This document shows positions 6,403 through 64,000 of a stretch of 64,000 nucleotides of DNA, one piece after another. The translations under genes and the position numbers were made by a program. This DNA is from Jaapia argillacea MUCL 33604. Taxonomy: Eukaryota > Basidiomycota > Agaricomycetes > Jaapiales > Jaapiaceae. How positions within the stretch are numbered: the stretch's first letter is position 1; each line of letters opens with the position of its first letter. The DNA lies in contig KL197749.1 of NCBI GenBank assembly GCA_000697665.1, forward strand, positions 122,441-186,440, in the 5' to 3' direction. The notes under the pieces are model-generated. The model was not told the origin of the DNA and did not search any database. It saw nothing but the letters and a program-made list of their open reading frames with translations.

Positions 6403-6985
6403 ACCAAGAGAGATTTCCCTTACGTTTTCTCTGGTAGACGAGCGCAGTACACGTTTCATCCAAACAAATTATCTGGGAGTCGTTCACATACCTATGCGTC
6501 AAGGCTACACGAACACATTGGTCACTGGTATCATAAGAAATGACCAATCAACGTATATCCTCCCACAACGAACGACATCCTATCGCAACCTCAACTTCCT
6601 AATCCCTGCGCCCCATCTTTCTCCCTCCCCTCCTCCCCCAACGTCTTCTTCTCATCCCCTCATCCCACATCCGAAAACGCCCTGGGCATAACAAGTTCAT
6701 ACTCTAACTCTTCATCTCCTTTCCTCCCACATCGTGTCCCGACGTGGGTGGTATCGCCGGAAGCGACCCACCCTCCACCCACGAGCACACTCAACTTACT
6801 CCCCCTCCTCCCATGTAAAGGCGCACGACGTTCTCTCAAACACATCTCCCTCACTCCGAAAGTCAATTTTCACATTTTCCTCTCCCACCTCCTTCAACTT
6901 GGGTTAGTTCGCATTCATCCTCGGAGTCATAAGGAGGTTGAAAAGTTCACATACTCATTCTCTGTCTCACTCTTCTAGTCTCCAT
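6345..6985. repeat. left copy of a local segmental duplication
   Basis: Aligns in order with 7145-7960. Shared landmarks are the ACTATACCATCGATCT block (6352 vs about 7150), the TCACATACCTATG block (6485 vs 7284), the CAACCTCAACTTCCTAA block (about 6587 vs 7475) and the GTCATAAGGAGG block (about 6928 vs 7878). The right copy is the 3' end of the CaM-kinase gene and its downstream DNA. The left copy is therefore a broken duplicate of the kinase tail, joined to the end of the F-box pseudogene. Confidence 0.75.
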
Positions 6986-7144
6986 TACCTGCTGGACCGT
7001 TACCCTTACTCCTTACCCTCCGCATGAAGTGTGTGTGTCATCCTCAATCTATATGCCTTGTCTCGTTGCTAATCCCATGTGTAGCTAATTGACACTGCAA
7101 GTAGAACATATCCTCATTCTCCTCGCTATTCGGATGCAGTTCCA

Positions 7145-7960
7145 AACCTGAGTATACCATCGATCTCGAGGGGGCTTGGGCCGATGAACCAACCAAGAAA
7201 CATTCCGTCCGCCTTTTATCTGGTAGACGAGAGTAGGGGCGTTCAGAGTACACCTTCCATCCAAACGAATTATACGATAGCCATTCACATACCTATGTAC
7301 AAAGAGAAATAGAGAAATCCAAGGCTACACAAACACATTAACATCATTGTACAAAGCCGAATACGAAGGGGGTCGAACTATGTATAATAGGAACTAATAA
7401 CCAATCAACCGATATCCACACCATCCTCTGCATACCTCGTCCGACAACAAACAACCCCAAACGGCACCCTATCGCAACCTCAACTTCCTAAACCACGCAC
7501 CCCAACCTTCTCCCTCCCCTCCTCCATGATGATGATGATGGTGATGATGTCGATGCTTCCTCCTCATCTCCTCATCCGAAAACGTCCCAGGCATAGCAAG
7601 TTCATACTCCGACTCTGCTTCCTCTCTTTCCTTTCCATCATGTCCTGGTGTCGGTGTAGATGGCGCTTGAGAAGAAGCCTCCGTACCCTCCCTAACAACC
7701 CCACCCAACTCACTCTCCGTCCTCCCATGTAAAGGCTCATGAGCATCCTCATGATGTTCCCTCTTCAACACATGTCCTTCACTCGGAAGGTCAACTTTCA
7801 CATTTTCCCCAGCTTTACCCTCTCCAACCTCTTTCACCTTGTCCTTCTCCTTGGATTTGTTCGCTTCGTCCTCAGAGTCATAAGGAGGCGAAACGTTCAC
7901 ATACTCATTCTCTCCCTCACTCTTTTCTCCATTCCCCCCATTCCCTCCCTCTCCCTCCAC
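7145..7960. repeat. right copy of the segmental duplication (overlaps the kinase 3' end)
   Basis: Partner of 6345-6985. It covers about 325 bp downstream of the kinase stop and about 490 bp of its last exon. It is longer than the left copy because of several insertions or deletions, most visible in the low-complexity coding part. Confidence 0.75.
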
Positions 7961-10275
7961 CTTCTTCTCCACCTCCCCTCCCTCAACCTTCTTATCCTCA
8001 CCCCCCCTCCACCCACCCTCATCATCACTCTCCCCTTCCCCCCCTTCCTTCTTCTCCTTCTCCTTCTCCTTAACACTCTTCCACCCCCCACTCCCTCCAC
8101 TCCCCGCACTACCCATCCTAGCCAGTCTCCCAACAGCCAACGCACCCCTAATCGCCGTCCTCCATTTCGCTTTCGGATCGAAATTGTCTCGGAGACCTGG
8201 GAGGTCGTGTGTGGGCGGGACGAGGCCTGCAGTTAACCACTGGTTACAAGAATGTGGGACGGCGAGTGGGTATAAGGTGTGATGCGAGTGAGTGGGAATT
8301 AAGGGTAAAAAGGAATGAGCGAGTGCGGTAACGATCGAAGCAAAGGGAGGAACGTACGGGGTGTTTAAGAGCTTCAGCAGCCGTAGGCCTCTCCTTCGGA
8401 TCGGGATTCAACAATTTCTTGATAAAATCTTTCGCTAGAAAAACCAACAAAAAACGTCAACTCAAAACCAATCCATCATCCCCAAATCGGGCAACGACAA
8501 AAAAAAACATACCATCAGCCGAAACATTCCCCCAATACCTCTCATGAAACTCAATCTTAGCCTCCGTAGTCTCCCTAATCAACTCTTTCAAATCTTCAGA
8601 TCTAAAAGGTGAGTAGCCACAGAGGAGGACGTATGTGATTATCCTGGGGTTTTGTGTTAGTGCTGGTGTTGGTTAAGTGGAATCGAGGGTAGGCGGAATC
8701 GAGAACTGGGGTGCGGTACCGCCATCCCCCCCCCCCCCAAAAAAAAGAACCCTACAAAAGCACGCATATATCCTCCCCTCCGCCTCTCCCCTGAATCAAG
8801 GGTATCGAGGAGCTTCGGGAGAGGAATGGGTACGAAAGGAAGCGCGTAACCCGAAAAACCTCGCATATACCCTCTGCCTCTCCCCGTCCCCCCAAAGGAA
8901 ATCGCGCATATACTCTCGCCAAAACAACACGCATATACCCTCCCCAAAAGTCGTGCATACCCCTCCAAAAAAAGAAAGAAAGAAAAACGCATACACTCCA
9001 AAAAAAACTCACCCAGTACTCCAAACATCAACCGCCTTCCCATGTCCACTCTTCTTCAACACTTCAGGTGCTACATACCCAAACGAACCAGCTAGAGAAG
9101 TGAGGAGCTCTGTTTCGTCGTGTAGATGTTTTGCTCTGCGGTGGGGGGCGACCGGAGGAAGGATTCGGGATTGGGAGGGGGGGAGAGAAGGGGAGAGAGG
9201 GAGAGAAGGGGAGAGAGGGAGAGAAGGGGAGAGAGGGAGGTGAGAGGGGAGGAGGAAAAATGAGGGGCAGGGACACTCACATGCCAAAATCGGCAATGAC
9301 GATATCGGAATCAGCGTCTTTCGTCCTGTATAATATATTCTCCGGTCTATAATCGAGAGCATAAGGTGAGAAGACATAGAGGGAATGGCGAAAAGGCAGA
9401 AGGAAAAGCAAATCAAAGCCAAAATCGAAATGTTGTTGATATACGCACTTGAGGTCCCTATGAACGATATCATGTTCATGCAGATAAACCACTCCCGCTA
9501 AGATCGACCTGCGGGATAAGAGTTAGAGTTAGAGCTGATCGTGAGAGAAGGCTAAAGTAAGGATCACCTAACGACCGTAACTCCATCTCCCTCTGTAAAC
9601 TTGCCCCTCTTACATATCCTCTCGAATAATTCTCCGCCGGTTGCTAGTTCGAAGGAGAGATAGTACTTTGTTCGAGATTCGAACCATTCGTAGAATTTGA
9701 CGATATTAGGATGGTTGAGACCTGTTCCGGCGGAAGGAGATGATGATCAGGGAACAAGAACGGTAATGAGAGAATAAGCGACGGTAGGCAAACATACCCT
9801 TAAGAACATCCATCTCACTCCAAACAGCACTCTCATTCCCCTTAACCTTCTTCTTCGGAATAATCTTCAAAGCAACATCTTTCGTAATCGTACTCTCTCC
9901 CTCCTTCTCCTTCCCTCCCTTCAAACTTGAACTCGTATTAGTCCTACTGAGGGACTTGCCCTGGAAATAACCGGTAAAGGAAGATGAAGTAGGTCCCAGT
10001 GTTTGTGATTTTTGTGGGGTGCGGAGGGAGGAAGAGGTGGGTGAGGGCTCTGCTGAGGCTCCGCGGAGGGCGATGGGGGTTTGGGAGGGGGGGACGTGCC
10101 ATGTTGCTCGCTGCGGGGGTGATTAGAGTGGGAGGGATGGGGAGAGGAGGGAGAACGGACGTACGACGACTTTTCCGAAGGTGCCTGTTCCTAAGACACC
10201 TTGTAATTCATAGTTCTTCTTCTTTGCGAATGAGGGAGGCTGGGGTAGGAGAGAGTCGGAGAGAGAGATGTGCAT
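7469..10275 (-). CDS. Ca2+/calmodulin-dependent-type Ser/Thr protein kinase, 601 aa
   Basis: CAMK-group kinase. Nine exons fit in phase: 10275-10165, 10110-9798, 9721-9568, 9508-9449, 9346-9281, 9135-9013, 8643-8513, 8434-8358 and 8239-7469. The glycine loop GTGTFG is at residues ~29-34. VALKII has the ATP lysine at ~119, HRDLKPEN the catalytic Asp at ~211, and the DFG Asp is at ~232. APEVL and an AVDVWSTG-type motif follow. Residues ~366-388 ([18 protein letters not shown]) match the autoinhibitory/calmodulin-binding helix of CaMKI-like kinases. Two oddities stand out. A Ser/Thr-rich insert of about 75 residues separates the glycine loop from the ATP lysine. The last ~200 residues are low complexity (Glu/Gly/Lys-rich), with a run of eight His just before a basic C-terminus. 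The intron between exons 6 and 7 is unusually long, about 370 nt. Confidence 0.9.
8763..9000. repeat. degenerate CGCATATAC-type repeat inside a kinase intron
   Basis: Six irregularly spaced copies of a GCATA(TA)C core followed by C/T- and A-rich spacers fill most of the long kinase intron (9012-8644). It looks like a decayed minisatellite and explains why this intron is six to seven times the local norm. Confidence 0.6.
9177..9245. repeat. GA-rich tandem repeat in a kinase intron
   Basis: About 3.5 copies of a ~17-18 bp unit of the GAGAAGGGGAGAGAGGGA type, purine-only on the plus strand, within the intron between kinase exons 5 and 6. Confidence 0.85.
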
Positions 10276-12544: not shown

Positions 12545-12632
12545 GTCTACCTCCAACCACCTTTGCATCCAGCTTCACCAAGCTTTCCACCCCCCTTCCT
12601 CTTAGAACCAAATCCAGACTCGGCTCGTCACG

Positions 12633-14247
12633 ATGCGTCTCACCTCCCTCATCCCTCTCCTCTCCTTAGGCCTAGCCAAAGCCCAATCTATCAACACCAC
12701 CTACCTCAATGGGCTTCTCAACGAATTGACTAATGCGGGGTTCACTTCGCTTGTTTCGGCTGCTGCGTCGGTGGAGAATACGACTGTTGGACAAGAGATT
12801 TTGAGCGAGTTGAGTTCGGCTTCGAATGGGAGTACGAAGTTTACTGTGTTTGTGCCTACTAATGTTGCTTGTACGTCTCTCCTCCCCCCCTTTTTAAACT
12901 CGATTAACACAAACTGATTCATCCTCACGTTCATTATAGTCTCGGGCGTACCTTCCAACATTTCAGGCGACCCTAACGTTCTAGCAGACGTCTTGGCTTA
13001 TCATATCGTCAGCGGTAATATATCAACCAACGAAATCGCTTCGTATCCGAATACGACTATTGGAAGGACGTTGTTGAATGATACGAATTATGTCGCGCTT
13101 GAGGGGGGCAAGAGTCAGGTTTTGGCTTGGACGAAATGGCCCAATGGGAATACGACTATTTTAAACCAAAAGTACGTCTTTTCGTTTGGAGGAGGGAGTT
13201 CGCTGGGAAGATTCGTTACTGATTTAAGGGCGTTTTTAGCACCGTCGTGAACGTCCTATCCAACTCCGTCTATCAGAATATCGAACTCTACGTCGTAGAC
13301 GCTGTCATTGACACTCCAGGATCTTTGGATGCTGCTTTGTTCGCTAATAACTTGACGGCATTGAGGACTGTTTTGAGTAGTGTGACTGAGGGTTCGGGTT
13401 CTTTGTTCACTGTGAGTTACTAGTCATTCTTCCTTGGGTTTATCTCGCTTTCTTAGCGGCTCTCAACTTCTGGTGATAGCAACTCAATAATACACATGGT
13501 TTCACGTTATTCGCTCCTACCGACGCTGCTTTCGCTGCTGTTCAATCACAATTGACGAGTTTGGGTTCGAACATGACGGCGTTGCAAGCTGTATTGGGTA
13601 ACCACGTAAGTCCCATGCATATCTTCCTTACCCATCGTATGTATCAATCCACCTCGCTAATAATCTCATTTATGTGTTCTAAAAGATCATCAATGGAACG
13701 ACGGCGTATACACCTACCCTCATGGCGCATAATTATACATCCGGAGCTGGAGAGTCGTTGAACACCCGTGCGAATTCGAGCGGAGTGTTCGTGTTTAGCG
13801 GGAACAGTACCGCTTCTGTGAGTACTGGGTTTGGGTTTTTTGAAAGAGCCGAGTTTTATTGATGATTTTTTGGGGGGGTAGATCACGAAACCTGATTTGA
13901 TACTTGATAATGGAGTGGTACATATCATTGATCACGTCTTGTTGAATGAGGATAGTAATACTGGTGCTGCGAGCTCTGCGTACGTCGTTCTCCCCTCCCT
14001 CTCTGACACGGCGCTCAACTGAAACGCCAATTTTCGTACATGTAGCTACTCATCGGCTACATCCGCCGCTGCACAAACTTCTACCGAGAGTGGACCGGTA
14101 GGATCTACGCCTTCTGCTCCTGGTTCTTCTGGAAGTAGTGGAAGTGGAAACGGTAGTGGGAGCAAGAGTGCGGCTGTTGGGATGGGAGTTGGGAAGGCGT
14201 GGGGGTTGGTTGGTGCTGGGTTGGTTTTGGGTGTTTTGGTTCTGTGA
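12633..14247 (+). CDS. secreted fasciclin (FAS1) domain protein, copy 1, 399 aa
   Basis: Cell-surface adhesion-type protein with two FAS1 domains. Seven exons fit in phase: 12633-12870, 12940-13171, 13240-13411, 13480-13605, 13686-13817, 13882-13979 and 14046-14247. It has an N-terminal signal peptide (MRLTSLIPLLSLGLAKA), FAS1 motifs (KFTVFVPTNVAF; TLFAPTDAAF; GVVHIIDHVLL), many N-glycosylation sequons, a Ser/Gly-rich linker and a hydrophobic C-terminal tail, as expected of a GPI-anchored wall protein. Its tandem paralogue at 15363-17069 has identical intron positions and phases, so the pair arose by gene duplication. Confidence 0.92.
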
Positions 14248-15280: not shown

Positions 15281-15362
15281 ATTCCGTTTCAACCATCCTT
15301 CACTCTCACCTTTTGCGCTTGTATTCACTCCCACCCATCTTTACTTTGAACCTCCTTGCACG

Positions 15363-17069
15363 ATGCGTCTTACATCCCTCACCTTTCCTTTCTTGTCCCT
15401 GGGTTTGGCTACAGCCCAGTCGATAAACACGACATATGTCGCTGGTCTTCTCAGTGCCCTCAACGGCGCTGGTCTCACCTCACTCGTCTCGGCTGCCTCG
15501 AGCTTGAATTCGTCAACTGTTGGTCAACAGCTTTTGGGCGAGTTGAGTGCCGGGTCGAATGGTACCACCAAGTTCACGATCTTTGCACCCAATAACGGAG
15601 CTTGTACGTCTTTCGCTCTCCTCCCACCTTGTCATCCACATATTTACCATCGCCGATCCATAGTCTCCGGTGTCCCCTCAAACATCTCTGGAAATCCTAG
15701 CCTCCTGGCCGATGTCCTCGCCTACCACATACAGACCGGCAACATTTCTACCAATGAAATCGCTTCGTACCCCAATACCACCATCGGTCGTACGTTGTTG
15801 AATGACTCGACTTATGTCCAGTTGGAGGGAGGAAAGAACCAGGTTGTGGCCTGGAGTAAGCAGAGTAATGGGAATACGACTGTGTTAAATCAAAAGTGAG
15901 TTTCTTTTCGCTTGGGGACTATTTGTCTTGGGGAGGCTATGCATGACGGAGTGTATGCGTGGAGATGTTTATACTCGGCTGAACATACACGCTCTGGATA
16001 CCATTGCCATGTGGTGATCGTATAGGTCGCTATATGCGCGCCTGTAGTCGCAAATGTCACTTTGTGGATCAAATTTCCCTCTCGCTTTCAGCTGCTGACA
16101 TATATATTCCTTGTCAGCACGGTTGTGAACGTCCTCTCCAACACGGTCTACCAAAATATTCAGCTTTACATCATCGATGGCGTCCTTGACATCCCGGGAT
16201 CGTTGGATGCTGCCATGGCCGCAAATAATTTGAATACTTTGAGGACGGTCTTGAGTACCATCACGGTCGGGGGAGGCAGCTTGTTCACCGTCAGTGGCTT
16301 CCTTCTCCTGTCCATCGGTCGAGTTTCATTGCTTATTCGATTGAACCTTCTAGCAATTGAATAGCACACGCGGTTTCACGTTGTTTGCTCCCACCGACGC
16401 TGCTTTCAGCGCTGTCCAAGATCAATTGACCAGTTTGGGCTCGAACATGACTGCCCTCCAGGCTGTTCTCGGAAACCACGTATGTTACCGACTTTCAATT
16501 TGAACTCATCTTCATGTATTCCCTTTAGATCATCAACGGATCGACAGTTTACTCACCCACTCTCATGACCCAAAATTTCACGTCTGGCGCTGGAGAGTCG
16601 TTGAGCTCTCATGCGAACACTAGTGGAGTATTCATATTCAGCGGAAACACTACTGCTGAAGTGAGCATCATACTTTTTCTCGACATCAAAGTTTATGGAT
16701 GACTGACTTTGTGATTATCATAGGTTTCGAAACCTGACGTGATTCTCGACAATGGTGTTATGCACATCATTGATCATGTCTTACTGAACCTCCAGTCTGA
16801 TTCGAGTGCCGCCAGCTCTGCGTACGTTCCTTCCTCAACGTTTGACATGCTGTTGGCTCACCGATCGTTTGCCTGTTAGTTATGCATCTGCAACCTCTGC
16901 CGCCGCCCATACTTCAACCGAGCAAGGACCTGTTGGGTCTACGCCGAGCGCTACTGGCTCTGCGGGAGGTGGAGGCAATGGAGGTAAGAGCGCTGCTGTT
17001 GGATTGGGTGTGGGGAGTGGATGGGGAATGATTGTTGTGGGGTTGGTAGCCGGTGCCTTCATTTTGTAA
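15363..17069 (+). CDS. secreted fasciclin (FAS1) domain protein, copy 2, 396 aa
   Basis: Tandem paralogue of 12633-14247. Exons are 15363-15603, 15664-15895, 16118-16289, 16354-16479, 16529-16660, 16724-16821 and 16880-17069. Exons 2-6 have exactly the same lengths as in copy 1 (232, 172, 126, 132, 98 nt). It carries a signal peptide (ending ATAQS), two FAS1 domains (KFTIFAPNNGAF; TLFAPTDAAF; VMHIIDHVLL), a Ser/Thr/Gly-rich stalk and a hydrophobic tail suited to GPI anchoring. The third intron-exon boundary region differs in that its intron 2 is ~220 nt against ~70 nt in copy 1. Both copies look intact, so functional divergence or dosage is possible. Confidence 0.92.
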
Positions 17070-17481
17070 GGTTTTGGAACTAGGAGAAGTGAGTAATGAA
17101 TGGGTGAGATGTGGAGAAGTGTTGGCGAGGCGAGTAATTGGGATGACTTGTGGGAGTGATGAGAAATACGATTTTGGACTCCTTTGACTTCATGGATGGT
17201 TCTTTGTTCGAATGTTTGTGATTTTGTGTCCTTAGTACATAGTTTAGTCGTCCCTCAATTTACTCGTGTGGACTTTGTCTCCACCACTGTAATACCCAGT
17301 ACGAAGCTGAAACGTCGGATTAAACTTTGCAGAAGACGTGCAATGATGATTTGTGCTACTTAGCGTCGATAATTGATGCCCTTCAATTCAACGTTTGGCA
17401 CACTGACGAGCATGAAGTTGAATGACAGCCTTCCCCAGCACATATGTCACGATCAAGTCTATTTCCATTCCTTACCTTCAC
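17070..17481. other. spacer downstream of FAS1 copy 2
   Basis: Probable 3' UTR/terminator region of the FAS1 gene. I see no gene in it. Confidence 0.4.
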
Positions 17482-17935
17482 TTACAAATAATCAACCTTC
17501 GTAAGTACCTGCTCCCCCTTCCTCTGAATCTCAGCTACATTACTAAACCCAGCCAAAGTTTCGGCCCGCTTCTCTGTACGACCGCCTCTATCACGCGAGT
17601 AAGTAGGTGGTGTGGCTAACACCATTCGTATACCGAGCTTCCGAGTTGGCCCTGGCAGTACCGAGTTCACCATCTGCATGAACGAGCCTCGGACGCCTAC
17701 GAAGAGAGGAGAGGGGAGTCTAACGCCTAATATCGTCGCCTAGGGAAAAAGCATATCAGTCAAGACCGACTTGCTCAATGGCCGCTGAGAAGACTAGGAA
17801 AAGGAACCTTCAAGTTTCAGTCAGTGTTATCGACGAACATTCGAGGGACGATCTTCCACCTTTCGGAAGTTTGGATATTATCTCGTTGTCCCCATACTAC
17901 TTCAAGGCGATGGGGATATTCATTTTGAAACTGTC
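17482..17935 (-). pseudogene. deletion pseudogene of the FMN-dependent dehydrogenase
   Basis: The first ~80 bp (17482-17560) match the 3' end of the intact gene at 21890-21970; the minus strand reads KGEQVLTKVDYL before a stop. The sequence then jumps to match 22990-23330, the region covering intact exons 3-2 (KLGIRMVLATPPT in place of [13 protein letters not shown]). About 1 kb of internal coding sequence, including the active-site His exon, is missing at the join near 17560. It cannot make a working enzyme. Confidence 0.75.
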
Positions 17936-21518: not shown

Positions 21519-21889
21519 TCATTTACGACCCTTTCCGTCGTTCATTTTAGGTTTCCCTAGTCCCTTCTTTACGGTTGTGATTGTATTTGAACCCTCTTCG
21601 TTACCGCGATGTACTTCGTATTTTCGTTTGTTGTGATCCGACTTTCTCATTTGCTCAAGCGGGTGTGGTAGTATTGTCGTATTGTTGTGGTGTTTTCGAC
21701 GTGTCCGAGCTCGTTCTACATCAGTTTCCTTCACCACGTCAACGTTGTTTGGAGTCTGAACGATACTTCGAAAAGGGACTAAGTCACTCAAAAACGTGAT
21801 GAACCCCCCATCCACATCAGCCCAGTCTAACTTCAACGAGCAACTTAAATGTTCGCCAGAAACTATGCATCACCATTCTGTATATTAAC
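21519..21889. other. convergent 3' flanks of lipase and dehydrogenase
   Basis: 370 bp between two convergent genes. It should hold both terminators; no gene seen. Confidence 0.4.
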
Positions 21890-23610
21890 TTACAAATAAT
21901 CAACTTTCCTGAGTACCTGCTCCCCCTTCCCCTGAATCTCAGCAACAGTACTGAACCCAGCCAAACCCATCGTAATCTCGAGTTCCGCCAGAATACTCTT
22001 CAAAACTTCTTCTACGCCGGCTTGACCACCAACAGCCAGGCCGTACAGAACGGGACGAGTGACCAGGACGGCTTGAGCGCCCAATGCAAGAGCCTACCAT
22101 CCATATGGGATAAGGAACGAGAGGTAAGGTATAACGAGATTGAGGATGACACACCTTCATAACATGGGTTCCATTTCGTATACCAGAGTCGAACATGACA
22201 GTCAACTTTCCTGATTTCTGAGCTGCTCGGATACTGGGTGCGCTGCAGATTTCCGCTAGGGCGTATATCGATGGGAGGGCACCGTCGATTTGTCTGCCGC
22301 CTTAGGAACTTTGGTTAATAACCCAACGGCAAGCAGAGGGAGGTAGTGTTGGAGAGGAAGGGGAAGCCGGCGCTTACCGTGGTTCGAGACGACGATACCA
22401 TTCGCACCCCATTGAATCGCTTTCTCCGCATCCTAATCCACCAAAAAGTCAGCCTCCTTCCAAGGAACCTCAAGTTGATTGAACCATACCTCAACGGTCT
22501 GGATCCCTTTTACCACCAAAGGCCCCTCCCAATTATCCCTCAAAAACTTCAAATCCTTCCACGGCCTAAACTGACCAGAATGTACTTCCTGCAAATACGC
22601 GATACCCAACATGGTATCCACCGTCGCCTTTTCGTCGCCCTCTTGTAATCCCTTATCCATGGCCTTGGCGTCGTAAGGGAAAGCGGGTCGGTAATCAGGT
22701 CTCACGGGCTGCTTGTGTCGTGCCATGAAGACAGGGTCGGACATTAGGTTTTGAGCACCTCGGCCGTGCATAGCTGGGGCATAGGATTGGGCAATGTCGA
22801 GGGTACGCCAACCGTTGATGTTTGTGTCGAGGGTTACGACGAGGGTTGAGAAACCGTTTTTCTTTGCGCGGGATAGCAGGGATAGGGTTACGTCGTCATT
22901 CTTTGGCCTATCAAAAGCAATTTGAGAACGGTTGCATTATGGATAGGTAAGCAAGCGGTACAGACCAGTAGAGTTGGTACCATCGGTGGCTATTTGGCCC
23001 GTTCTCCTGTGCGACGACCTCCATAGCACGAGTGGACGGTGTAGCTAGCACCATCGGTATACCGAGCTTCCCAGTGGCCCTGGCAGTACCAAGTTCACCG
23101 TCTGCGTGAACGAGGCCTTGGGCGCCCATAGGACCTACGAAGACGGGAGAGGGGAGTTTAACGCCGAATATCGTTGTCTGGGGGAAAGGTATCTCAGTCC
23201 TAGCCGACTTGCGCCGAGAAGTCTAGGAAGGACGAACCTCCAGGTTTCGGTCAGTCGTATCGACGAGCATTCGAGGAACGATCTTCCATCTCTCAAAAGC
23301 TCGGATATTGTCTCGTTGTGTGAGTCCAGTCCCCGCACCACCCCAGACATACGTGAATGCCGCTAGCTCAGGTCAACCACGAAGAAGGAACATATACACG
23401 TCAACACTGTTGCCAGTACCTGGACGAAGAAGGGATGAACTCACAAGGATTGTCCTTGAGTGCCTCTTTGGCTCTCTCCTCTATCTGCTGAAACTCCACC
23501 GTTCCAAGAGCCGGGGGTGGGACACGACTTCGAAGAAGCTCTCCCATGTACGTCGACCAACGTTGTGGGATGACAGCTCCTACCTCAGGTACTTCAGTGT
23601 GTTCTCCCAT
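21890..23610 (-). CDS. FMN-dependent 2-hydroxy-acid dehydrogenase (lactate oxidase/monooxygenase-like), 441 aa
   Basis: TIM-barrel flavoenzyme that oxidises an L-2-hydroxy acid such as lactate to the 2-oxo acid. Seven exons fit in phase: 23610-23445, 23362-23238, 23177-22966, 22907-22490, 22432-22378, 22300-22155 and 22093-21890. Family landmarks in order are [54 protein letters not shown], the active-site [17 protein letters not shown] (His ~325), [17 protein letters not shown] and [16 protein letters not shown]. No cytochrome b5 domain and no targeting peptide are present, so it is not cytochrome b2. A broken partial copy lies at 17482-17935. Physiological substrate is not decidable from sequence. 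Confidence 0.92.
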
Positions 23611-49580: not shown

Positions 49581-51613
49581 TCACTCAGCGTGAAGATCTG
49601 GCATCCATCCACAACATTCACGGGTCCCACACTCACATTTTGTAACCAACCCTGCAGGCTTTTTAGAAGCCTTCTTCCCATTCTTTGCTCGGGAAGGCTC
49701 GTAATCAAGAGTGAGTTCTGCGTACGGTGGTATATCTTGGGTCGCTGCAAATGCCAGATAGGGGAGATTCTGCTAGAACCGGGGCGTAAAACGGAGGGGT
49801 AAGAAACCCTTTTAGTTGACGAAACTTCCAGGAGGTGGGGAAGACTATACCTCGGGTATAGTGTCATAAACCACGGGGTAAACGAGCAAGTTTGGCGCGC
49901 AGGAGTGACTGCCAGATCAACAAGTTGAGCCAATGAGGAAAGAGGAAAAATATGGGCTCACTTGATGAATCTAGTCCAGTTACCTTGTGTGAGTGCGAGG
50001 GTTAGTGGAGGGTAACTTGTACTAATTGACATCAACTAACCGTATTCATAGGCGTCCACAGCATACATCGCTTCTTCAATTGAGCCATCCAGATCAAACA
50101 CGTAGGGTCTGTGCTCAGGAGGGAGGTCTTCTAGTAGTGGATGACTCCCAGGGATATCGAACGACCGACGGCTATGTAGATAAGCCTATCAGCGAAAGGG
50201 ATAGGAGGCGAGGAGGCGAGATGGACTAACACTACCTCTCTGCCAACGGTGATGGGAACAAAGTCAATGGTGAGGATCATGCGGTGATACACCATGCGTA
50301 CTGTACCCTGTATAGACACCAAGAACTTTCCCTCTGGGGATGGCCACTGGGCAGCGAACTCCCCACCCGCGATCTGCTGTCTTGAATATCTCAACTGCGA
50401 CATCACGAGGTGCTTGGGCAACTCTGTTCAGACAAGTGGTTCTGGTACAACCACATCCCTAGGATAACGATGTTAGTATAGTAGAGTATAAATCTGGGGA
50501 TAATCTCACGGAGTTGCATTCTATGACATCCGCACCTGGAGGGACGTTGAAGGCAAACAGGCCCTGCGGAGGGTCAGGTTAGGTCGAGATCGAGAGTTGT
50601 GGTGAGAGATGGGCCGCCTACCTGTTTCGTATAGGCGAAAACCTTCTTATCTCGTTTGTTAACCACCTTGGACTCCACTTGGCACTCACAGGCGGATGCG
50701 TCTACACAACTAACGCAGTCACAAACGGTGAACATCTCGTGCTGTCTCTCTGGTTCTTCATCTGAACTGGACGGAAGAGTCACATGAGTAGTGCAATGAC
50801 GCGAACAACGACAGGCGCGTACTGATGATACTTATTTTCGAGCCACGTAAAGTTGGGCGAGAGGGACGGCGTTTGCTCGCCATCTATATCATTGGCGATG
50901 GTAACTGTGGTTGCCCCCGCCTTGCGAGCAGCTCTCTTCCATCTGTCTTGAAGAACTTGCCTATCCTGTTGGAAAGGTAGATGATGAATCAGAGACGAGC
51001 AGGTCAGTGGATATCTATGAAATACTTACTGTGCTAGAGTCAGGCTGGTTGATAAGATCCCAGCCTGCATATCGGGACGATCCTTCCTCTTCGCCACTCC
51101 TTTCCAGCTTCTCTTGGATCGCCTGGGCTCTCTTTCCCGTGTTTCTTCGGTGCATATCAAGGGTGTAGATTGGGGCAAGCTCAACTTCCAAGCTTTCCTT
51201 TGCTTGATTGGCCCGTTTGTCTTCTTGGGAGTCTTGCCAATCTTCGATGAGGTGGACAGCATCGGGAAGGGTTCGCATCCAGGTAGTGTTTGTTCCATTC
51301 GCTCGTTCCCAGTCTGCCCACCGAATCTATGTAAAGATAAAGGGATGTTGCGGTGCAGAATGACTACTAGGAACATACCTCGTACCTGTGCATTCAAGTT
51401 GTCTCCTCACGTGAGTGAACAGTTGAATGGCTGGGAGTGGACTTACCTCGATTGCCCTGTGATTCCAACCTCCTCGCTGACGACACCATCAACTGCCCAC
51501 ACTCCAGCCTCGTTTTCATACTCGCCCCAATCCTCCTCTTCAGTTTCAGACTCCACCCACATCGGCGGCTCAACAACGACGGGTTTCTTCTTCTTGGTTT
51601 TTTTATTTCCCAT
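49581..51613 (-). CDS. histone H3K9 methyltransferase, Clr4/SUV39/DIM-5 type, 457 aa
   Basis: Writes the heterochromatin mark H3K9me. Twelve exons fit in phase: 51613-51447, 51385-51379, 51326-51030, 50965-50832, 50766-50622, 50563-50510, 50458-50307, 50239-50236, 50185-50041, 49983-49962, 49908-49851 and 49769-49581. The N-terminus is basic then acidic. A chromodomain-like segment ([37 protein letters not shown]) spans ~45-90. Pre-SET Cys residues are in [14 protein letters not shown] and GCGCTRTTC. The SET domain has [23 protein letters not shown], the catalytic FINHSCAPN (~374-382) and ELTLDYEP; post-SET is [12 protein letters not shown]. Exons 2 (7 nt), 8 (4 nt) and 10 (22 nt) are micro-exons; exon 8 completes the conserved SET TGE. 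An alternative start at 51637 would add eight residues. Confidence 0.88.
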
Positions 51614-52447
51614 TCGACCGGCGTGAGTTACTTTCACACGTTGATAACAAAAGACGGCTGGAGTATGCTCTCAGGTCGAAGTACTTGAACTGGCTGTTGC
51701 CAGTGGACTTGTGTGACGTGAGCGATGCGAAGGGGTCGCATGACTTTGTCACAAATCACGTGGATTGCCATGTGTGTGACGCAAGTGAATGTGCAACGAT
51801 GAGCGCTAGGGGCATTCGCGATAGACTACACTTGGCCCTGCATATCGCTCGCACAAACCAAGCTGGGACTTGCCTTCTTGCTGTTATGCGCGGTCACCTA
51901 TCGGTGAGCGACCTTTCCGTCTCTAGTTACTTGTTGTGGCAGTGCCCGTTTGGCTGGTGGGCCAACTTGAGTGTTTCAAACAGTTCAGGAAGGTTGTGCT
52001 GATGTGTCGCTTCTTGCTTCCTCTCTTATCTTTTTCTACTGAGACGACGACGACGACGACGACTGATGTCCCAGGCGGTTTCAGACTCAACCCACATCGC
52101 CGGCTCGACCGTTGAACGTCGTTTGGAACCTGGTGCATTGTCGCCGAATATGGCCACGTGGCCCCGGAATGAAACAAACATAGGACCCGGGACATAGTTA
52201 TATGGCAGTGGCGGGGCCCTACAAATATACCTTCTCCTGGGGCTCAATCTTGAAGAAATGGTGGACATGACAACGCATTATTCCTTTCAAACTTCCATTT
52301 TCCAGCGGATATTCGAGCGGGATCATATGGATATTCAAATTGCACAGCTCCTACCGGACGCTTTTCGACGGTTGCACAGCTTTCTGCAACGGGTTGGATG
52401 TGGAGCATGACCAACGCCCCACGGCTCCCCTACTATCTCCCTCCGCT
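51614..52447. other. divergent promoter region of the methyltransferase and the helical-domain gene
   Basis: About 830 bp. 51614-51695 and 51836-52065 belong to the repeat family also found at 55.3-58.1 kb. A second short fragment of methyltransferase exon 1 (about 52080-52108, matching 51546-51574) follows, then a TATA-like AAATATA at about 52225. No intact pheromone gene is present here. Confidence 0.6.
51836..52065. repeat. unit A of the pheromone-locus repeat (remnant, no pheromone gene)
   Basis: Begins with ATCGCTCGCACAAACCAAG and GCGGTCA blocks that recur at 55511 and 56796. It continues through the TCTTATCTTTTTC.CTGAGA block shared with 55733 and 57015. It ends before the TATA box and precursor gene present in the other two units. 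Confidence 0.65.
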
Positions 52448-53417: not shown

Positions 53418-54752
53418 ATGTATAAATTCTCACCGGTACGTACCGAACATCCACGCCTTGGCGGAATTTTCCAACTGATCACAACAACGTTTAGCGGCCC
53501 CCATCTTCAGCAGTCATTCGGACTTTCGGCATCGCCCCTCACCCCCATCAAGATCACAGCAGAATTCATCTCTCGTCCAGGTACTGACCCTCTCGGACTT
53601 AAGTCCAGCGTTTTCTCCAGCCGAAACTTCGCAGTTGTCATGACTCAATTCCATAATGCCACTTTCGGAGCAAACTACGGTCCGTGTGCACGCTCTGTCT
53701 TCCTTATCCTCTCCCCGTCGAATCTTCAATTGATCTTTACTTTACTTCCTTCAACTATTCGATAGAGCCTTTCATCCAGAATGTCCTCGTGAAAGCCACC
53801 CATCTAGGATACAAGAAAACGGTAAAGGGTCTCGCAAGGATCAATGCCCGCCAACATATTTTTCAGGATCCGACGTTGGGAGCTGTAACTGTGGAGGAGT
53901 ATTTCAGACAGAGTCAGTTCATTGCTTGTTACTGAAAGACGACCCGTCACCTGATGCAATGGTGGGAAATAGCGTACAAGATCGAACTCGTATATCCTGA
54001 ATTGCCGCTTGTGGTGGTCGGGTCGCAGAATTTGCTTCCACCGGAGCTATGCGTTATTGTGGATAGGGCACAGGATTCGAGCAGGCCCAGATCACCGAAA
54101 GTGGGTCTCTTCTCGATCATCGTACAACAATTTTATGGAACCTGACGGTCCTCAGCCAAAATCTCGAATTACGAGAGTCGAGTACAGGAAACGTTCACCA
54201 ACGATACCAAGTGAAGACATCCTCCGATCCGAGCTCCGTATACGACTAGATCGATGGGCGGTCCTCTCGATCCATGAAGCGAGTCAAACCAACACTTTGT
54301 CTGATAAGACTCACGAAGACCTCGAATCCTCTATCACAACTTTCATGTCCGCTTGTCAGGCGAACGGGATTATGATTGATAAAAACCCTTCGACTCTGGT
54401 GGCAGTCATACCTCCGCGAACCGCTGACGACCTGGAGAGAAGCGATGCGGTTGGTATCTTGCGCCGAGTACTGGCGGAATGTCGGTCGGGGACTGGCGCT
54501 CTACCGAGGTTCATCCTGGTCCGTTCATCCTCTTCCCTCCACGCTCTCACAGAACTCATAGTCGTTGGGCAACAGGTCATTCTACCCTACCATGACAAAA
54601 CAATCTTTCGTGCGATCAAAGACCTGGGAAATGTAGAGGGCTTTGTGAATCAGTGCGTCCAATCTGGCAAGTTGAGAGATGAGAGGTTGGGGAGATCCAT
54701 ATTCAAAACAGTTGTGGCCAAGGTTGGTGTGAAACTTACGGAAATGGCGTAG
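53418..54752 (+). CDS. truncated Argonaute-like protein, PAZ and MID without PIWI, ~377 aa
   Basis: Exons 53418-53679, 53766-53912, 53973-54100 and 54156-54752 join in phase. The N-terminus (VRTEHPRLGGIFQLITTTF) recalls the Argonaute N-domain opening, but the N/L1 part is short. VKATHLGYKKTVKGLARI, TVEEYFRQ-YKIELVYPELPLVVVG and LLPPELCVIV form the L1-PAZ end. Exon 4 carries L2 and MID: WAVLSIHEASQ, FMSACQANGIMIDKNP, GALPRFILVRSSS, then IKDLGNVEGFVNQCV with the guide 5'-phosphate pocket helix, and KTVVAKVGVKL. A stop follows five residues later, where family members enter the PIWI slicer domain; I find no PIWI motifs downstream. It may be a relic or a small PAZ-MID protein. The 5' end is uncertain. 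Confidence 0.65.
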
Positions 54753-55309: not shown

Positions 55310-55440
55310 TAGGTCTTCTTGGTCTTTTATTCTCCATACCCCCGACGTGAGTTACTTTCACAAGTTTATAATAAAAAGATGGCTGTAAGATATTTCGAGG
55401 TCGAAGGTAGTTCACTTGCCGTGGTGTTGTGGTTGAATTG
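55310..55440. repeat. copy of the methyltransferase start/promoter sequence
   Basis: Matches about 51588-51695, from CTTCTTGGT.TTTTATT through CGTGAGTTACTTTCACA to the AGGTCGAAG block. The first ~30 bp correspond to the 5' end of methyltransferase exon 1, the rest to its upstream flank. It leads directly into repeat unit B, as 51695 leads into unit A. Confidence 0.75.
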
Positions 55441-55797
55441 TGTGACTAAGTGAGGGTGAAAAGGTGGGCGCCGATGGTCGCTCCCTCGTGAATGATCACG
55501 CTTTATCCTGCAGATCGCTCGCCCAACCCAAGTTGGGACGTCTTATTGTTGTTACGCGCGGTCATCCTAACGGTGAGTAGGTGAATTGACGATTCCCCGT
55601 TTTTGCTTATAGCGTTGGTATGATCAGACCGCCTTGAACTTTCCACTAAGTCGTCCCCATAACAGGTTGTACTCTTGGGCAGAAGCATTTCGGCGTCGAA
55701 GCCTGTTCTATCGCGTCTTTTCTTACCCCCCGTCTTATCTTATTTCTCTGAGATGATGCGCCAGACGACTCTTCGCCGACTCGGAGCCTGTGGTCCC

Positions 55798-55803
55798 CTA
55801 TAA
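55798..55803 (+). promoter_or_regulatory. TATA box of pheromone gene 1
   Basis: TATAAA 108 nt upstream of the ATG at 55906; conserved in position in the sister unit. Confidence 0.75.
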
Positions 55804-55905
55804 AGATGACCAACCTACGGTTTCTCCCTCACCAAAGCACTCGAATTCGCAATCATCCGCCTTCATCCTCAGGATCCCTCCTCTTCACACACCACCACAA
55901 ATAAA

Positions 55906-56013
55906 ATGTATTCCTTCATCACCGTCTTCACCACCTCCGCCGTCGAGGACGGCAGGACCCCCAATAATTACGACAATCAAAACCAGTGGGGAGGCTACTG
56001 CGTTATCGCCTAA
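55906..56013 (+). CDS. CaaX mating-pheromone precursor, 35 aa (copy 1)
   Basis: Too short for a usual ORF call. It encodes a 35-residue peptide ending GGYCVIA and stop. Cys-Val-Ile-Ala is a CaaX box, so the Cys should be farnesylated, the last three residues removed and the end carboxymethylated, as in all basidiomycete lipopeptide pheromones. The internal EDGRT matches the charged pair at which these precursors are cut; the mature peptide would then be about 15 residues (TPNNYDNQNQWGGYC). The sister gene in unit C keeps the frame of TTSA-[VI], ED-x-RT, GGY and CaaA despite many changes. This shows selection on the ends and free variation in the specificity part. A TATA box and a donor-like GTGAGT after the stop (3' UTR intron?) are shared. 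Its receptor would be a STE3-type GPCR, not seen here. Confidence 0.85.
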   Translation: MYSFITVFTTSAVEDGRTPNNYDNQNQWGGYCVIA

Positions 56014-57084
56014 GTTGGTGCAACCGCCTGTATTTTTCGGTGCGGGCTAGCGTAATAATGTGAGTATCTTCAGCTCACAGCTCAAACCTTCGATTGGCAT
56101 GTACACAAAGGATTTGAACATCCACAAGCACAAGCGTTCGTTACCCCGTATTTTCTATCATCAAACTGGATTGTTTGATTAGCTCCTACTTCTTCGTTCA
56201 TTCCCATCGATATACGATTTTGTTCCCCTTTTGTTCTTCTCTCGACGAGACGTAGTTTCATTTGTTGGCAGGGTTATCCAGCAGAGGACAGTTGAAATGG
56301 ATTGGGAGGACTACACAGTATTGTATCGCATATTATCAAGTACCACATTGGAGCATCCTGAGGAAACCGAAGGAAATCATCACTTCATTGATGGTGTCCC
56401 AGACAAAGTCAGCGATTATAAACGCTCCCAGAGTTATTAGGAGCATCCCCAATGGATTAATTGAGCGGGACCGAGTAGATCAGTTCATTTCGATGTACGG
56501 TAACAGTGGGGACTGTTTCCTCCAGGGGCGCCAGAAAACGGGGGGCCCCTCAAGTCAAATGGACGGCTAAGCCTGTCACCAGCGAGGGAGTATGTTTCGG
56601 CGGGTGTTGAACCTCATAGAACGACTCAGCCGATGACGAGTACATCAGTCAGGACCCAGAGAATCAAATCTGTTGAGGAATGCAGGCGCAAGGGATCTTG
56701 GAAGCCTGATTCCGTCACGCGTCACAAACGGGGATACGGTGGCAGTGAACTGGAAGGTTTGAGATGCAGGGGCAAAGACCAAACTTTGCCCCACAGATCG
56801 CTGGCACAAGCCAAGTGGGGATGTTATGAGCGGTCATCCCAACCGGCGAGTGGGTGATTTGACCCTTTCCCATGATCAGACCATCTTAAACTTTCGTCAG
56901 CGTCGTGAGTCCCGATAACAAGTTGCAAACACCTGTCTTGGGCCAAAGCGTTTCAACAGGGACAGGGGTAGCAGCCAGGAAGGCTGTTCTATCGTGTCTT
57001 TTTTTGTCCCCCGCCTTATCTTGTTCCTTTGCGATGATGTGCCAGGCTCGACTTCTTCGCCACTGAAGGCTCGGAGTGTTCTGC

Positions 57085-57090
57085 TATAAA
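57085..57090 (+). promoter_or_regulatory. TATA box of pheromone gene 2
   Basis: TATAAA (in GCTATAAAAG) 84 nt upstream of the ATG at 57169. Confidence 0.75.
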
Positions 57091-57168
57091 AGATGACATT
57101 TCCCTCCCACCAAAGCACTCAAATCACATTCATCCTCATCCTCAGGATCCCATCCTCCACACACCACC

Positions 57169-57282
57169 ATGAATCAAATGGATTCTTTCACCACCTCCGC
57201 CATCGACTCGGAGGATGTCAGGACCTCTACCCCCGTTAATCTCGACACGGGAACAGGGGGATACTACTGCCTCATCGCCTGA
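57169..57282 (+). CDS. CaaX mating-pheromone precursor, 37 aa (copy 2)
   Basis: Encodes a 37-residue peptide beginning MNQMDSFTTSAIDSEDVRT and ending GGYYCLIA, with Cys-Leu-Ile-Ala as the CaaX box. The ED-V-R pair is the likely N-terminal processing site, leaving a ~16-residue mature peptide (TSTPVNLDTGTGGYYC) that differs from copy 1 in almost every internal residue. An internal Met at 57178 is an alternative start. Composition, size, CaaX end and tandem arrangement are those of homobasidiomycete mating-type B (pheromone/receptor) genes. The two peptides could activate different receptor alleles. Confidence 0.87.
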   Translation: MNQMDSFTTSAIDSEDVRTSTPVNLDTGTGGYYCLIA

Positions 57283-58090
57283 GCCGGCCAAACCGCTCTT
57301 GGTTATTGGTGCAGTCTATTAAGCAATGATGTAAGTATCTTCAGTCCGCATCGAGGTGTAATGGACCTATATGACTCACCAGCACAAGTATTCGTTACCC
57401 CATATTGACTATCATCAACCCAAGCTGGTTGATAGATTCTTGATCCATTCCTTCATTTGCAGTGAATTGCCATTTTATGCATGTTTTATATGCTTGTTCC
57501 TCATCGACGAGACGTAGTTTTGGCTATTGGCGAGGCTACCTGAAGAAGGCAGCAGATAGGGATTGAGAAGACCAGTATTGTATCGCATATTGTCAAGTAC
57601 ACATTTTAGCACCCTGAGAAGTCCAAGAAAAACATTGCTTCGTTAGCGATATTCAGGACAAAGTGAGGATGTGCGCAAACTCCCAAAGTCACTGGGAGTC
57701 CCCAGCATGCGTTATCGAAACGGGATCAACTAGATCAGCGCGTATCACATCGGGAGAGGATGTCCAAGCCTCGTCTCATTACCACACGGACGGTAACAGT
57801 AAGAGAATCAGGAAGACGACAATGCACACACACGTTGATGCCTCGAAGAAGGACTTTCCCGCCAGAGGAACCCTTTCGAGTCAAATGCATAGATAAGACT
57901 ATCACCGGAAAAGGCGCGTCAGTGGGTTTCAACAAAAGTCCACGGAACGGCACCACAGATGACGAGTACATCAGGCAGGATCCAGAATATGGGGGCTGGC
58001 TGAGGAATGAAGGCATCAGACATGACGGTGAGAACCACAAGAGGAAGCGGGGAAGCGGGAACTTCCTTAGTGCAATGCGGACCTGTGGTA

Positions 58091-58397: not shown

Positions 58398-59463
58398 TCA
58401 GCTTGAATTGACCCCAAGGATAGTGGCCAACTCTAAAAAAGAGTCCACAACGATGTCAACATCCCCTCCTTCCGCCTTGCTCTTCACCTGTTCTCGAATT
58501 TCGGCAGTATCCTCGGTGGGACGACGTACATATATCGTCTTCATTCCATGGCTTGCGGCGGCTCTAAGATCATAGATATGCGCAGCGACCATGGCACACC
58601 GTGAGGGCGGGATTGAAAGATGATGAGCAGCTCCCAAGCATGTTTTCGGGTTGCTAGTTACCGCTACTATCAGTCAGGGAGTGGCCTCCTGAGATGGGTA
58701 CATACGGTTTGTAGGATCCCAGCAACTCTCCGGAAAATATGACATCCCAGGGTAGATTAGCAAACTTCGCCTGGACGACCATGAGAGCCTCCTCATACGA
58801 AACTCAAAAAGAACACTCACCATGTCGGCAAGGAGACGCACATTTCCGTTGGAAAGTGTGCATATCATGTATCGCTTCTTAAGCGCATACAGTCCCTCGG
58901 ACGAATCCGCCCAGCCTGGAATGCTCAAGATCAGCACGTTGTAATCATCTCGGAATGATACTTCAGCACCGTGGAGGCGATGCCAGGCAAGATTCAGATC
59001 CTGGAGCTCCTCCTCATTCCAGAGGGACGATAAGTGTGACCACTTGGCCGATTTCAACATATCATCGAGGATCTGGTGTTTGTATCGCAAGGAAATCAAG
59101 TAGGATATCCAAAATGATGGCTTGCCTCTCGATGCATAATGTCGACATTGAGGGGGCCATTCCCTCCCTTTGCAATATCCTGGCTACTCCAGCGTTGGCG
59201 TACGATGGTTGCGTCAGGTAGAGTCCGTAACAGATAAAGGAACGTACGTCATACGACCATAGCCTGCTCTCCATTCTGCAGCAAAGTCTGCCCAGTCTGT
59301 ACCGTCGTGAGATAAGAGTCGAGCAGCCACCCAGATCGAAACTGATTTCCAGACCTTCTACTCGTCCTTTCGAACGCGATCTGAGTTCTTCAGTTATGGA
59401 ACCATGCCAGTCAACAACGGTGCCAAAAACGTCAAACAACAGGGCCTCGCAGTCGAAGACCAT
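58398..59463 (-). CDS. haloacid-dehalogenase-like hydrolase (type II 2-haloacid dehalogenase family), 248 aa
   Basis: HAD-superfamily hydrolase resembling (S)-2-haloacid dehalogenases. Seven exons fit in phase: 59463-59343, 59296-59248, 59183-59126, 59072-58970, 58915-58821, 58770-58706 and 58653-58398. Motif I is ALLFDVFGTVVDW (nucleophile Asp), motif II TLSNGNVRLLADM, motif III Lys in ELLGSYKP, and motif IV HIYDLRAAASHGMKTIYVRRP. WADFAAEWRAGY and NVDIMHREILDDML belong to the cap. Intron 3 begins GCAAGC, a GC-AG intron, and only this junction keeps the NVDIMHREILDD helix in frame. Fungal members act on various small substrates; true dehalogenase activity is not implied. Confidence 0.88.
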
Positions 59464-59694: not shown

Positions 59695-60885
59695 CTAGCC
59701 TTGCAATACATACGGAGCGATGAAACCAACAGATCCAAGGAGAGTACCAGGCCATGCCAAAAGGAATAGGAAAAGCCCTCGAAGCCTCCCGAGGTTACCC
59801 ATTGAAGGTCTCGAGAGGATGGCCCAGAGAAAGAATGAAACAGTTGTCCAGATAACATCCCAACCAATAGACGACTGGGCCGGATGTGAATGTAGAACCT
59901 CCCAAGCGGACACCAAGAAATCAAGGGGGCTCTGCCTGGAAGGAGAAGGAAGGGAAAGGAGAGCGAAGAGTGTGGTACGGAGATGGAGTCCCAAAGCCAT
60001 CACGGTAACTAAAGAGGCAAGGGTTGACACGCGTATGGAATACGCGGGAAAGTGTAGAGGTGAAAATGCGAGGGGGATGACGAGGAGCGCGTGCATGGTG
60101 AGGAGATTCGGGAGGAAAGTCTTGTCCGAGGTGTATGGACTCATTCCAACAGTGGCGAGCGAGAGAAGAACGCTGATCCACAGGAGAGGAGAGGCTCTGG
60201 GAGAGTGCAATGGTCTTCGACCTTGCATTGCGCCAAGTAAAGCCAGGTAGAAGAGGTTGGACGCGACGGAGATGGCGACCACTTGGCCAAGAAGCATATA
60301 TGCCCAGACATGCTTCACACCGTATTTGTGGCCTTCGAGACACGTCAACAGCCATAAGTATAAACCGTAAACCGTAAACTCACCTTCAATGGCGATGAAG
60401 ATGGTCCACGCGCCGACAGTGAATAGACACAACTGCTCACTCCACCACCAGTTCATCGGGCCATTACACACTAACGCCCACGCTTCCTCGAACAACCCTG
60501 TATTCAGAAGCCAATCCGTGATGCGGTACAGGACTCTGGGATCGTGGACGGCAACAGAACTTTCATAGTTCACGAAGCTCCACTACATTCCCTCAGTTCG
60601 CGTCTCATCCGTCGGCATCATGGCTCACTCACCCTCATGTACTTGAACATATCTGTGGGAACAACGTTGCGATGAGGAATAGGTGCTCGTGTCGTGAAGG
60701 TACTGACAAAACCATGTGTGTCCAAACGACAAGCAAGTCAGAACACGAAAAGTGCGAGACCTATTGCGAATAGCATCATTTTGTCGGGGAACAGGTAGGC
60801 TCTTGACGATCAAACGGAACAGAACAGCGATAAGGATGAAATACGAGACAAATATTGACAACGCAACAAGGTGAGGGCCATCCAT
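59695..60885 (-). CDS. multi-pass membrane protein of unknown function, 344 aa
   Basis: Four exons fit in phase: 60885-60708, 60652-60633 (20 nt), 60582-60384 and 60332-59695. The first intron-free segment (LVALSIFVSYFILIAVLFRL) is a membrane span. Others follow around SEQLCLFTVGAWTIFIAI, VWAYMLLGQVVAISVASNL, PLLWISVLLSLATVGM, LLTMHALLVIPLAF, VSTLASLVTVMALGL, IWTTVSFFLWAIL and LRGLFLFLLAWPGTLLG, giving seven to eight spans. A soluble loop contains HTWFYMFKYMRWSFVNYE. I do not recognise the family. It is not a STE3 receptor: it lacks that family's motifs and long cytoplasmic tail. The intron 60383-60333 is 51 nt and in frame, so a retained form would also be open. Confidence 0.75.
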
Positions 60886-63128: not shown

Positions 63129-64000
63129 TTAAGCCTTCACAAAGACATACAAATATGCAAGTTTCTTCAACTCTTTGACACTCTCCTTATCGGCTTTCAC
63201 AACCTTCTCGTCATTGAACAGCACCCAACCCTCATCTGGATCCGCAGTCGAGGGTTCCTGTGCAGGTGCTCGGATATGGGCGACATAATGACCCGAGTGC
63301 ACTGAAGGCCCTTTGTGGGAGATGAAAGCCTTGAGAGTATACCTTGCTGGCAACATAGCCGATCCCCCGATTGTCACTGCGGGTTTCGACGATTCAGAGG
63401 TCGAGAGCGCGGTTTCCTCGCCCATGTCATCGGGATGCGAGAAAAGCCACTCCACAGCCCGTTCGGTATTGTCACCCTATTCGCTTATTAGTCAAAAAAA
63501 AATCCCTGGAACAAAACCTCACGTACCGTTTCACGTAAAGCCTTGCGTGCTTGAGCAGCCGTAAAGCCCATGTCAGCCAACATGCTGACATTTTCAGCAG
63601 CAGGCTCAGGTCCCGACGCACTCGAAACTCCAAGTTGAATAGGAGAATCGATGTCTACAAATTGATGATGTTCGATTAGATCATGATAAGAAGCGAATAA
63701 ATGGTGAATTTTAACCGACCAGGATCTTCCATGTGGGCGAAGAGCCAGTCCATCGCTGCCTCGGGATCGGAATTCCCTGTGGCTAGAAGAGCTTTCTGGC
63801 ATCTGATTACAGGGAAACCCATCATCTCGAGTTGCGTCATGGCAGCGTCGTTGAACTGAGGTAAATCAGGGGCAGCAGCTATCGGAATGATCGAAATATC
63901 AGGCCTGCGTTGCAAAAACGTGCTAAGGGAGTACGGACCTGCATTCTCCTCTGGTAATTCGATCTCGCCAGGTTGGAGGCCACGCCCAATGTATTTATCA
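63129..64000 (-). CDS. UBP14/USP5-type deubiquitinase (partial, 5' part outside window)
   Basis: C-terminal part of a ubiquitin-specific protease that disassembles free polyubiquitin chains. Final exons are 63476-63129, 63654-63527 and one ending at 63720 that starts near 63910; a further exon runs to the window edge (DKYIGRGLQPGEIELPEE). Two UBA domains are visible (AMTQLEMMGFPVIRCQKALLATGN; MLADMGFTAAQARKALRETGDN, WLFSHPDD). The His box YTLKAFISHKGPSVHSGHYVAH, with the catalytic His, and DEGWVLFNDEKV follow, and the protein ends AYLYVFVKA. The UBA pair inside the catalytic domain is diagnostic for USP5/UBP14. The intron near 63905-63940 is very short in any in-frame reading and its ends are unresolved. 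Confidence 0.9.

Follow-up and report, generated by a model that had tools for sequence, protein, structure and literature searches.

A very probable tandem pair of short lipopeptide pheromone-precursor genes, with no STE3 domain found among the scanned reading frames of the surrounding 64 kb

The lipopeptide pheromone precursors of agaricomycetes (Pfam family Pheromone, PF08015; the phb, PHB, and Pp genes) are short proteins with an MDSF-type start, a Pro-x-Asp/Asn site followed by an acidic residue, and a CaaX end. In the accounts cited here, MD[S/A]F is given as their usual N-terminal motif (PMC8305134), the cutting site as one with Pro at position -4 and Asp or Asn at position -2 which releases products of 9–15 residues (PMC4136793), and the charged pair, of which ED is a named type (PMC5100862), as lying 10–15 residues from the C-terminus (PMC3140503; PMC5100862). 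Published precursors are usually 39–100 amino acids (aa) long, those reported for P. cinnabarinus measuring 39–65 aa (PMC4101180), and two reports set the lower bound at 20 aa (PMC8686365, PMC12387193). The B mating-type cassettes of F. velutipes, P. eryngii, and P. ostreatus bring several divergent pheromone genes close together and carry a receptor, and UbiA, MFS, and ICMT are described as neighbors of the B locus (PMC5473757, PMC13108863). Another class, the non-mating genes described from C. cinerea, L. bicolor, and A. bisporus, consists of CaaX precursor genes situated away from STE3 receptors, for which the consensus is given as GGGSGNGAYC or GGGSGNNAYC (PMC8305134).

In the present work, we have analyzed a stretch of 64,000 nucleotides (the 64-kb window) in which two open reading frames (ORFs) are very probably tandemly duplicated genes of this known kind, belonging, to judge by gene content and by these ORFs, to a mushroom-type basidiomycete. 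The two ORFs, and the sister units of the duplication in which they lie, are as follows:

55906–56013, plus strand: putative pheromone-precursor ORF 1, 35 codons, 35 aa (MYSFITVFTTSAVEDGRTPNNYDNQNQWGGYCVIA), C-terminus CVIA
57178–57282, plus strand: putative pheromone-precursor ORF 2, 34 aa when read from the ATG matching the ORF 1 start in the alignment, MDSF start, C-terminus CLIA
55511–56483, plus strand: sister unit 1, the core of the duplicated stretch (blastn self match)
56794–57738, plus strand: sister unit 2, blastn self match to unit 1

A first-pass annotation of this DNA had described two ORFs with CVIA and CLIA ends inside sister units, with TTSA, ED-x-RT, and GGY common to both. 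Our analyses bear this out: the units match with 65.6% identity over 1033 columns (E = 2e-59, blastn self match), the ORFs stand at the same place in both, the CaaX motif directly precedes each stop, and all three stretches are found in both proteins. The same annotation had given the second ORF 37 codons, and this longer form (MNQMDSFTTSAIDSEDVRTSTPVNLDTGTGGYYCLIA) is indeed present at 57169–57282; however, in the MAFFT alignment of the units the ATG that aligns with the unit 1 ATG is the one at 57178 and not that at 57169, so that 57178 is the likely start and the second protein is more likely to be 34 aa long. From this ATG the protein begins MDSF (MDSFTTSA), and the unit 1 protein begins with the near-match MYSF.

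Rhizopogon phb3.2, which ends GGYCVIS (PMC5473757, Table 4), is among the closest known agaricomycete precursors. The two window proteins are like such precursors in being short, in the MDSF-type start of unit 2, in a Pro-x-Asp/Asn site followed by an acidic residue, in the CaaX end, and in a predicted product of 9–10 residues; at 34–35 aa they differ from the 13 Rhizopogon rows of that table, which span 48–60 aa, and they fall under the usual published range. This short length is not decisive, because two papers place the lower bound at 20 aa. A non-exhaustive search of the literature on CVIA and CLIA ends, neighbor genes, 3'UTR introns, and orphan pheromones found no closer relative among the papers listed.

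Other duplications were seen elsewhere in the window. A diverged tandem pair at 12629–14225 and 15359–17047, of about 65–69% identity, probably corresponds to the two fasciclin-domain ORFs of the Pfam scan, and a further diverged duplication (6341–6989 and 7142–7936) has about 69% identity. Dispersed repeats of 76–87% identity (17560–17889 with 22993–23319; 17465–17557 with 21873–21965) are possibly parts of a mobile element.

A strict search for CaaX ORFs (ATG ORFs on both strands of the window, 20–110 aa, ending C[VIL][VIL][ASMC]) returned ORF 1 and ORF 2 and no others. In 60 first-order Markov shuffles the mean number of such ORFs of 25–80 aa was 0.12, with a maximum of 1, and ORFs ending C[VL]IA did not occur in any of the 60. 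Unit 1 has 7 and unit 2 has 11 sense ORFs that run from start to stop (at least 20 aa, every in-frame ATG being counted); among these, a single pair, 55906–56013 with 57178–57282, has both its start and its stop matched in the MAFFT alignment. The neutral decay of ORF 1 was also simulated in 40,000 runs with 30% substitution and the indel load seen in the non-ORF part of the unit core (19 indels, 3 with lengths that are multiples of 3); the frame was kept in 1.5% of runs and the frame together with the CaaX motif in 0.15%, the corresponding values at about half the indel rate being 2.3 and 0.19%. This joint survival reached up to 0.8% at 22% substitution and fell to 0.02% at 39%; when all 26 flanking indels were applied in a separate simulation, it was 0.8, 0.2, and 0.06% at 20, 27, and 33% substitution. 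That the two are chance ORFs in a non-coding repeat is suggested by their shortness, by the even spread of their differences over the codon positions (6/6/7), and by surroundings which are at least as conserved as the ORFs, but 0.12 strict CaaX ORFs were expected where 2 were found and the joint conservation of frame and CaaX has a frequency of 0.15–0.19% at 30% divergence, and we consider this reading very improbable.

The substitutions themselves carry no coding signature. Over 29 codons pS is 0.30 and pN is 0.19, and the differences fall 6/6/7 by codon position; these counts are uninformative, and we do not claim diversifying selection on the mature peptide. In the unconstrained MAFFT alignment, differing columns are more frequent within the ORF (41 of 105) than elsewhere in the core (240 of 798); 19 of 87 positions differ when the ORF is aligned by codons. 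The upstream stretch has in parts 76–87% identity against 51–68% in 50-column blocks over the ORF. Gaps inside the ORF measure 12, 6, 6, 2, and 1 in the nucleotide alignment, with one of 3 in MAFFT. Whole-codon gaps were considered as evidence of coding and the argument was dropped, because codon alignment produces such gaps by construction. The case for coding therefore lies in the start, the stop, the CaaX motif, the MDSF motif, and the cleavage pattern, not in the pattern of substitution.

The copies might instead be pseudogenes, the decayed remains of what was once a pheromone cluster, a reading with which weak Pfam scores, substitutions that give no purifying signal, and a possible third unit, of which two upstream stretches are left, would agree. 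Even so, both copies retain start, stop, frame, CaaX motif, and cleavage pattern although the core has diverged by 30%, and we judge decay to be improbable. The Pfam scores in question are those of the unit 2 protein, which matches PF08015 with E = 0.083 and 14.4 bits from 57178, or E = 0.11 and 14.1 bits from 57169, below the 22-bit cut-off in either form; a Pfam search with the unit 1 protein gave no match to this family. As a yardstick, 8 of the 13 precursors in Table 4 of PMC5473757 were tested against the same family, and all 8 match it, with 14.9–25.7 bits, although only 3 of them exceed the cut-off, which for that reason is not defining; none of the 8 scores as low as either window protein. 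The Pfam E-values published for F. velutipes precursors are 0.0013, 0.45, and 0.035 (PMC3140503), and one matB-linked precursor of P. tuoliensis is reported without a Pfam domain (PMC5755439). Pfam is a poor arbiter for these precursors. The identification as pheromone precursors, already proposed in the first-pass annotation, is thus favored by the CaaX ends, the MDSF motif of unit 2, the cleavage pattern, the retention of start, stop, and CaaX in diverged copies, and the weak PF08015 match of unit 2.

A pattern P-x-N-x|D occurs at the same place in both proteins (TPNNY|DNQNQWGGYC and TPVNL|DTGTGGYYC), and a cut there, which is our preferred site, would yield DNQNQWGGYC (10 residues, codons 23–32) and DTGTGGYYC (9 residues, codons 23–31). 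Both proteins fit the pattern P-x-[DEN]-x-[DE] followed by 6–13 residues and a CaaX end, which only 0.76 and 0.83% of 20,000 permutations of their cores fit; the same Pro pattern fits 9 of the 13 rows for Rhizopogon, or 8 of the 11 distinct ones, a looser form without Pro fits all 13, and 0.8–6.1% of the permuted cores of 8 Rhizopogon precursors fit it. The pattern was composed after both sequences were known, and these figures are accordingly supportive and not independent. Counting against the preferred site, a charged pair of the ER, EH, or ED type is absent at 10–15 residues from the C-terminus; the residues at 11–12 are D-N and D-T, which are not among the published charged pairs as ED is. 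In these predicted beginnings (D-N and D-T in place of E-R or E-H), as in their Pfam scores under the cut-off, the window products depart from the Rhizopogon type. The cut had earlier been placed at the ED pair. This pair is one named in the literature, but it lies 20–22 residues from the C-terminus and would release peptides of 17 and 18 residues; since published products have 9–15 residues and the pair is too far from the C-terminus, we rank this site second. The earlier statement that the mature peptides differ nearly throughout depends on the site chosen, as the two products of the preferred cut would share an initial D and, toward the end, GG and YC. The computed [M+H]+ values of the farnesylated and methylated peptides are 1402.646 for DNQNQWGGYC and 1154.544 for DTGTGGYYC, and 2205.018 and 2122.089 for the forms cut at ED.

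The signals that flank the two ORFs, and a pair of related stretches further upstream, are the following:

55799–55805, plus strand: putative TATA box TATAAAG, 107 nt before the ATG of ORF 1 (read from the sequence)
57085–57096, plus strand: putative TATA box TATAAAAGATGA (TATAAAA at 57085), 93 nt before the ATG at 57178
56060–56065, plus strand: donor-like GTGAGT, starting 47 nt past the last base of stop 1 (repeat family D16)
57331–57336, plus strand: donor-like GTAAGT, starting 49 nt past the last base of stop 2 (repeat family D16)
51589–51908, plus strand: two short stretches, 51589–51681 and 51837–51908, which recur at 55314–55406 and 55507–55577

The TATA box that had been noted ahead of each ORF is present in both cases, and the donor-like GTGAGT and GTAAGT after the two stops may mark a possible 3'UTR intron. 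The two recurring stretches (93 and 72 nt, 78 and 84% identity) lie 3.7 kb further upstream of their unit 1 copies, of which 55314–55406 is upstream of unit 1 and 55507–55577 is at its start. The CaaX ORF scan of the window found no such ORF behind 51589–51908, which is possibly a reduced third unit or else a shared upstream piece. A scan for bacterial-type promoters and terminators found none, which is irrelevant to a eukaryote.

The window was also searched for an STE3-type receptor near the pair, a check which the first-pass annotation had called for. Three sets of ORFs were scanned: 96 hand-picked from the 150 longest of the window (at least 101 aa), mostly skipping overlapping frames; the 150 longest (at least 59 aa) of 264 ORFs of at least 45 aa that start at base 44000 or later, for which 25 of 30 families were listed; and 120 of 298 further ORFs of at least 60 aa in 1–44 kb, chosen for a hydrophobic 19-mer. 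The second and third sets are stop-to-stop ORFs, and short STE3 exons could escape a Pfam scan of this form. STE3 (PF02076) was absent among the families listed for these 96, 150, and 120 ORFs, the right flank being covered for 6.7 kb, and MFS, UbiA, and ICMT were likewise absent among the listed Pfam families of the scanned window ORFs. Kinase matches were obtained at 9012–9497 and in one ORF in 1–44 kb, and the families listed in 44–64 kb include GH31, PAZ, HAD-hydrolase, DUF2834, NAP, and UCH/UBA, two of which lie to the right of the units:

58401–58673, right of the units: HAD-hydrolase (Pfam)
59698–60582, right of the units: DUF2834 (Pfam)

Upstream of the units, PAZ pieces were observed in the ORFs 53936–54142 (E = 3.3e-6, 27.5 bits, cut-off 28.8) and 53657–53932 (E = 0.026), and a Piwi domain was absent among the 25 families listed for 44–64 kb; the pieces at 53657–54142 are perhaps a truncated Argonaute-like gene.

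Membership in the B mating-type locus, one of the two settings that had been put forward for the pair, is unsupported by the window because the scanned ORFs yielded no STE3 domain, with 6.7 kb of right flank covered. The pair could still belong to a B (P/R) locus whose receptor lies just beyond the window or was missed: divergent tandem copies would suit mating specificity, the matB alleles of P. ostreatus are reported to span about 40–150 kb (PMC13108863), the receptors of F. velutipes are placed about 180 kb apart (PMC3140503), and the right flank within the window amounts to only 6.7 kb. Published distances between pheromone gene and receptor, however, amount to 320, 427, and 2102 bp for F. 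velutipes (PMC3140503), at most about 1.7 kb for P. eryngii (PMC4136793, Table 2), roughly 1.6 and 5 kb for P. tuoliensis (PMC5755439, Table 4), and, for one P. ostreatus gene, over 3 kb (PMC12387193), and neither STE3 nor MFS, UbiA, or ICMT is among the families listed for the scanned ORFs. We regard a place in the B locus as somewhat doubtful. Like the B cassettes of F. velutipes, P. eryngii, and P. ostreatus, the window holds divergent pheromone-precursor genes close together, but those cassettes carry a receptor and none was found here.

The other setting, that of a non-mating paralogue, is likelier than the B locus, given that the scan of the window ORFs found no STE3 domain among the listed families. 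We see about an even chance that the pair lies beyond the B locus and encodes non-mating peptides of the pheromone-like kind reported from C. cinerea, L. bicolor, and A. bisporus; as CaaX precursors away from STE3, so far as the scanned ORFs of this window show, the two resemble those. The precursor genes of A. bisporus are described as scattered away from its receptor genes (PMC8305134), and two pheromone-like peptides of P. tuoliensis are reported from scaffolds other than that of the two mapped to matB (PMC5755439). The predicted product DTGTGGYYC is Gly-rich like the consensus GGGSGNGAYC (PMC8305134); DNQNQWGGYC, on the other hand, is unlike it, and the window ends at base 64000. Pheromones without close receptor association are considered unlikely to have a role in mating type (PMC3140503). 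On the basis of that statement, of the scattered genes of A. bisporus, and of the lack of an STE3 match in the scanned ORFs, an orphan cluster, either of the non-mating, pheromone-like type or one separated from the B locus, appears somewhat likelier than a cassette of receptor plus pheromones. We tentatively propose, at somewhat less than even confidence, that the pair is a stand-alone tandem cluster of unusually short precursors (34–35 aa) with diverged mature peptides, uncoupled from a receptor, which would represent a non-mating or recently detached signal diverging in specificity beyond the B locus, alongside a possible third unit already cut down to upstream stretches.

Under the explanation that we favor, that of pheromone-precursor genes, each ORF would be expressed from its own TATA box as a precursor of 34–35 residues starting MxSF; by the known pathway the CaaX cysteine would be farnesylated, the last three residues removed, and the cysteine methylated, and a cut of the pro-part at P-x-N-x|D would release DNQNQWGGYC and DTGTGGYYC as lipopeptides to be read by an STE3-type receptor. 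As the copies have diverged, they may address different receptors. If expressed, the genes would give two defined farnesylated peptides whose masses are directly searchable. About half of the precursor genes in PMC5473757 are reported to have been recovered by a CaaX pattern script alone, and the present pair probably adds to the genes that annotation pipelines overlook. Pheromone-like genes away from receptors have been reported in several mushrooms, and the function and pheromone binding of non-mating STE3-like receptors are described as still unknown (PMC8305134); for such receptors, this clean tandem pair would be a usable ligand candidate.
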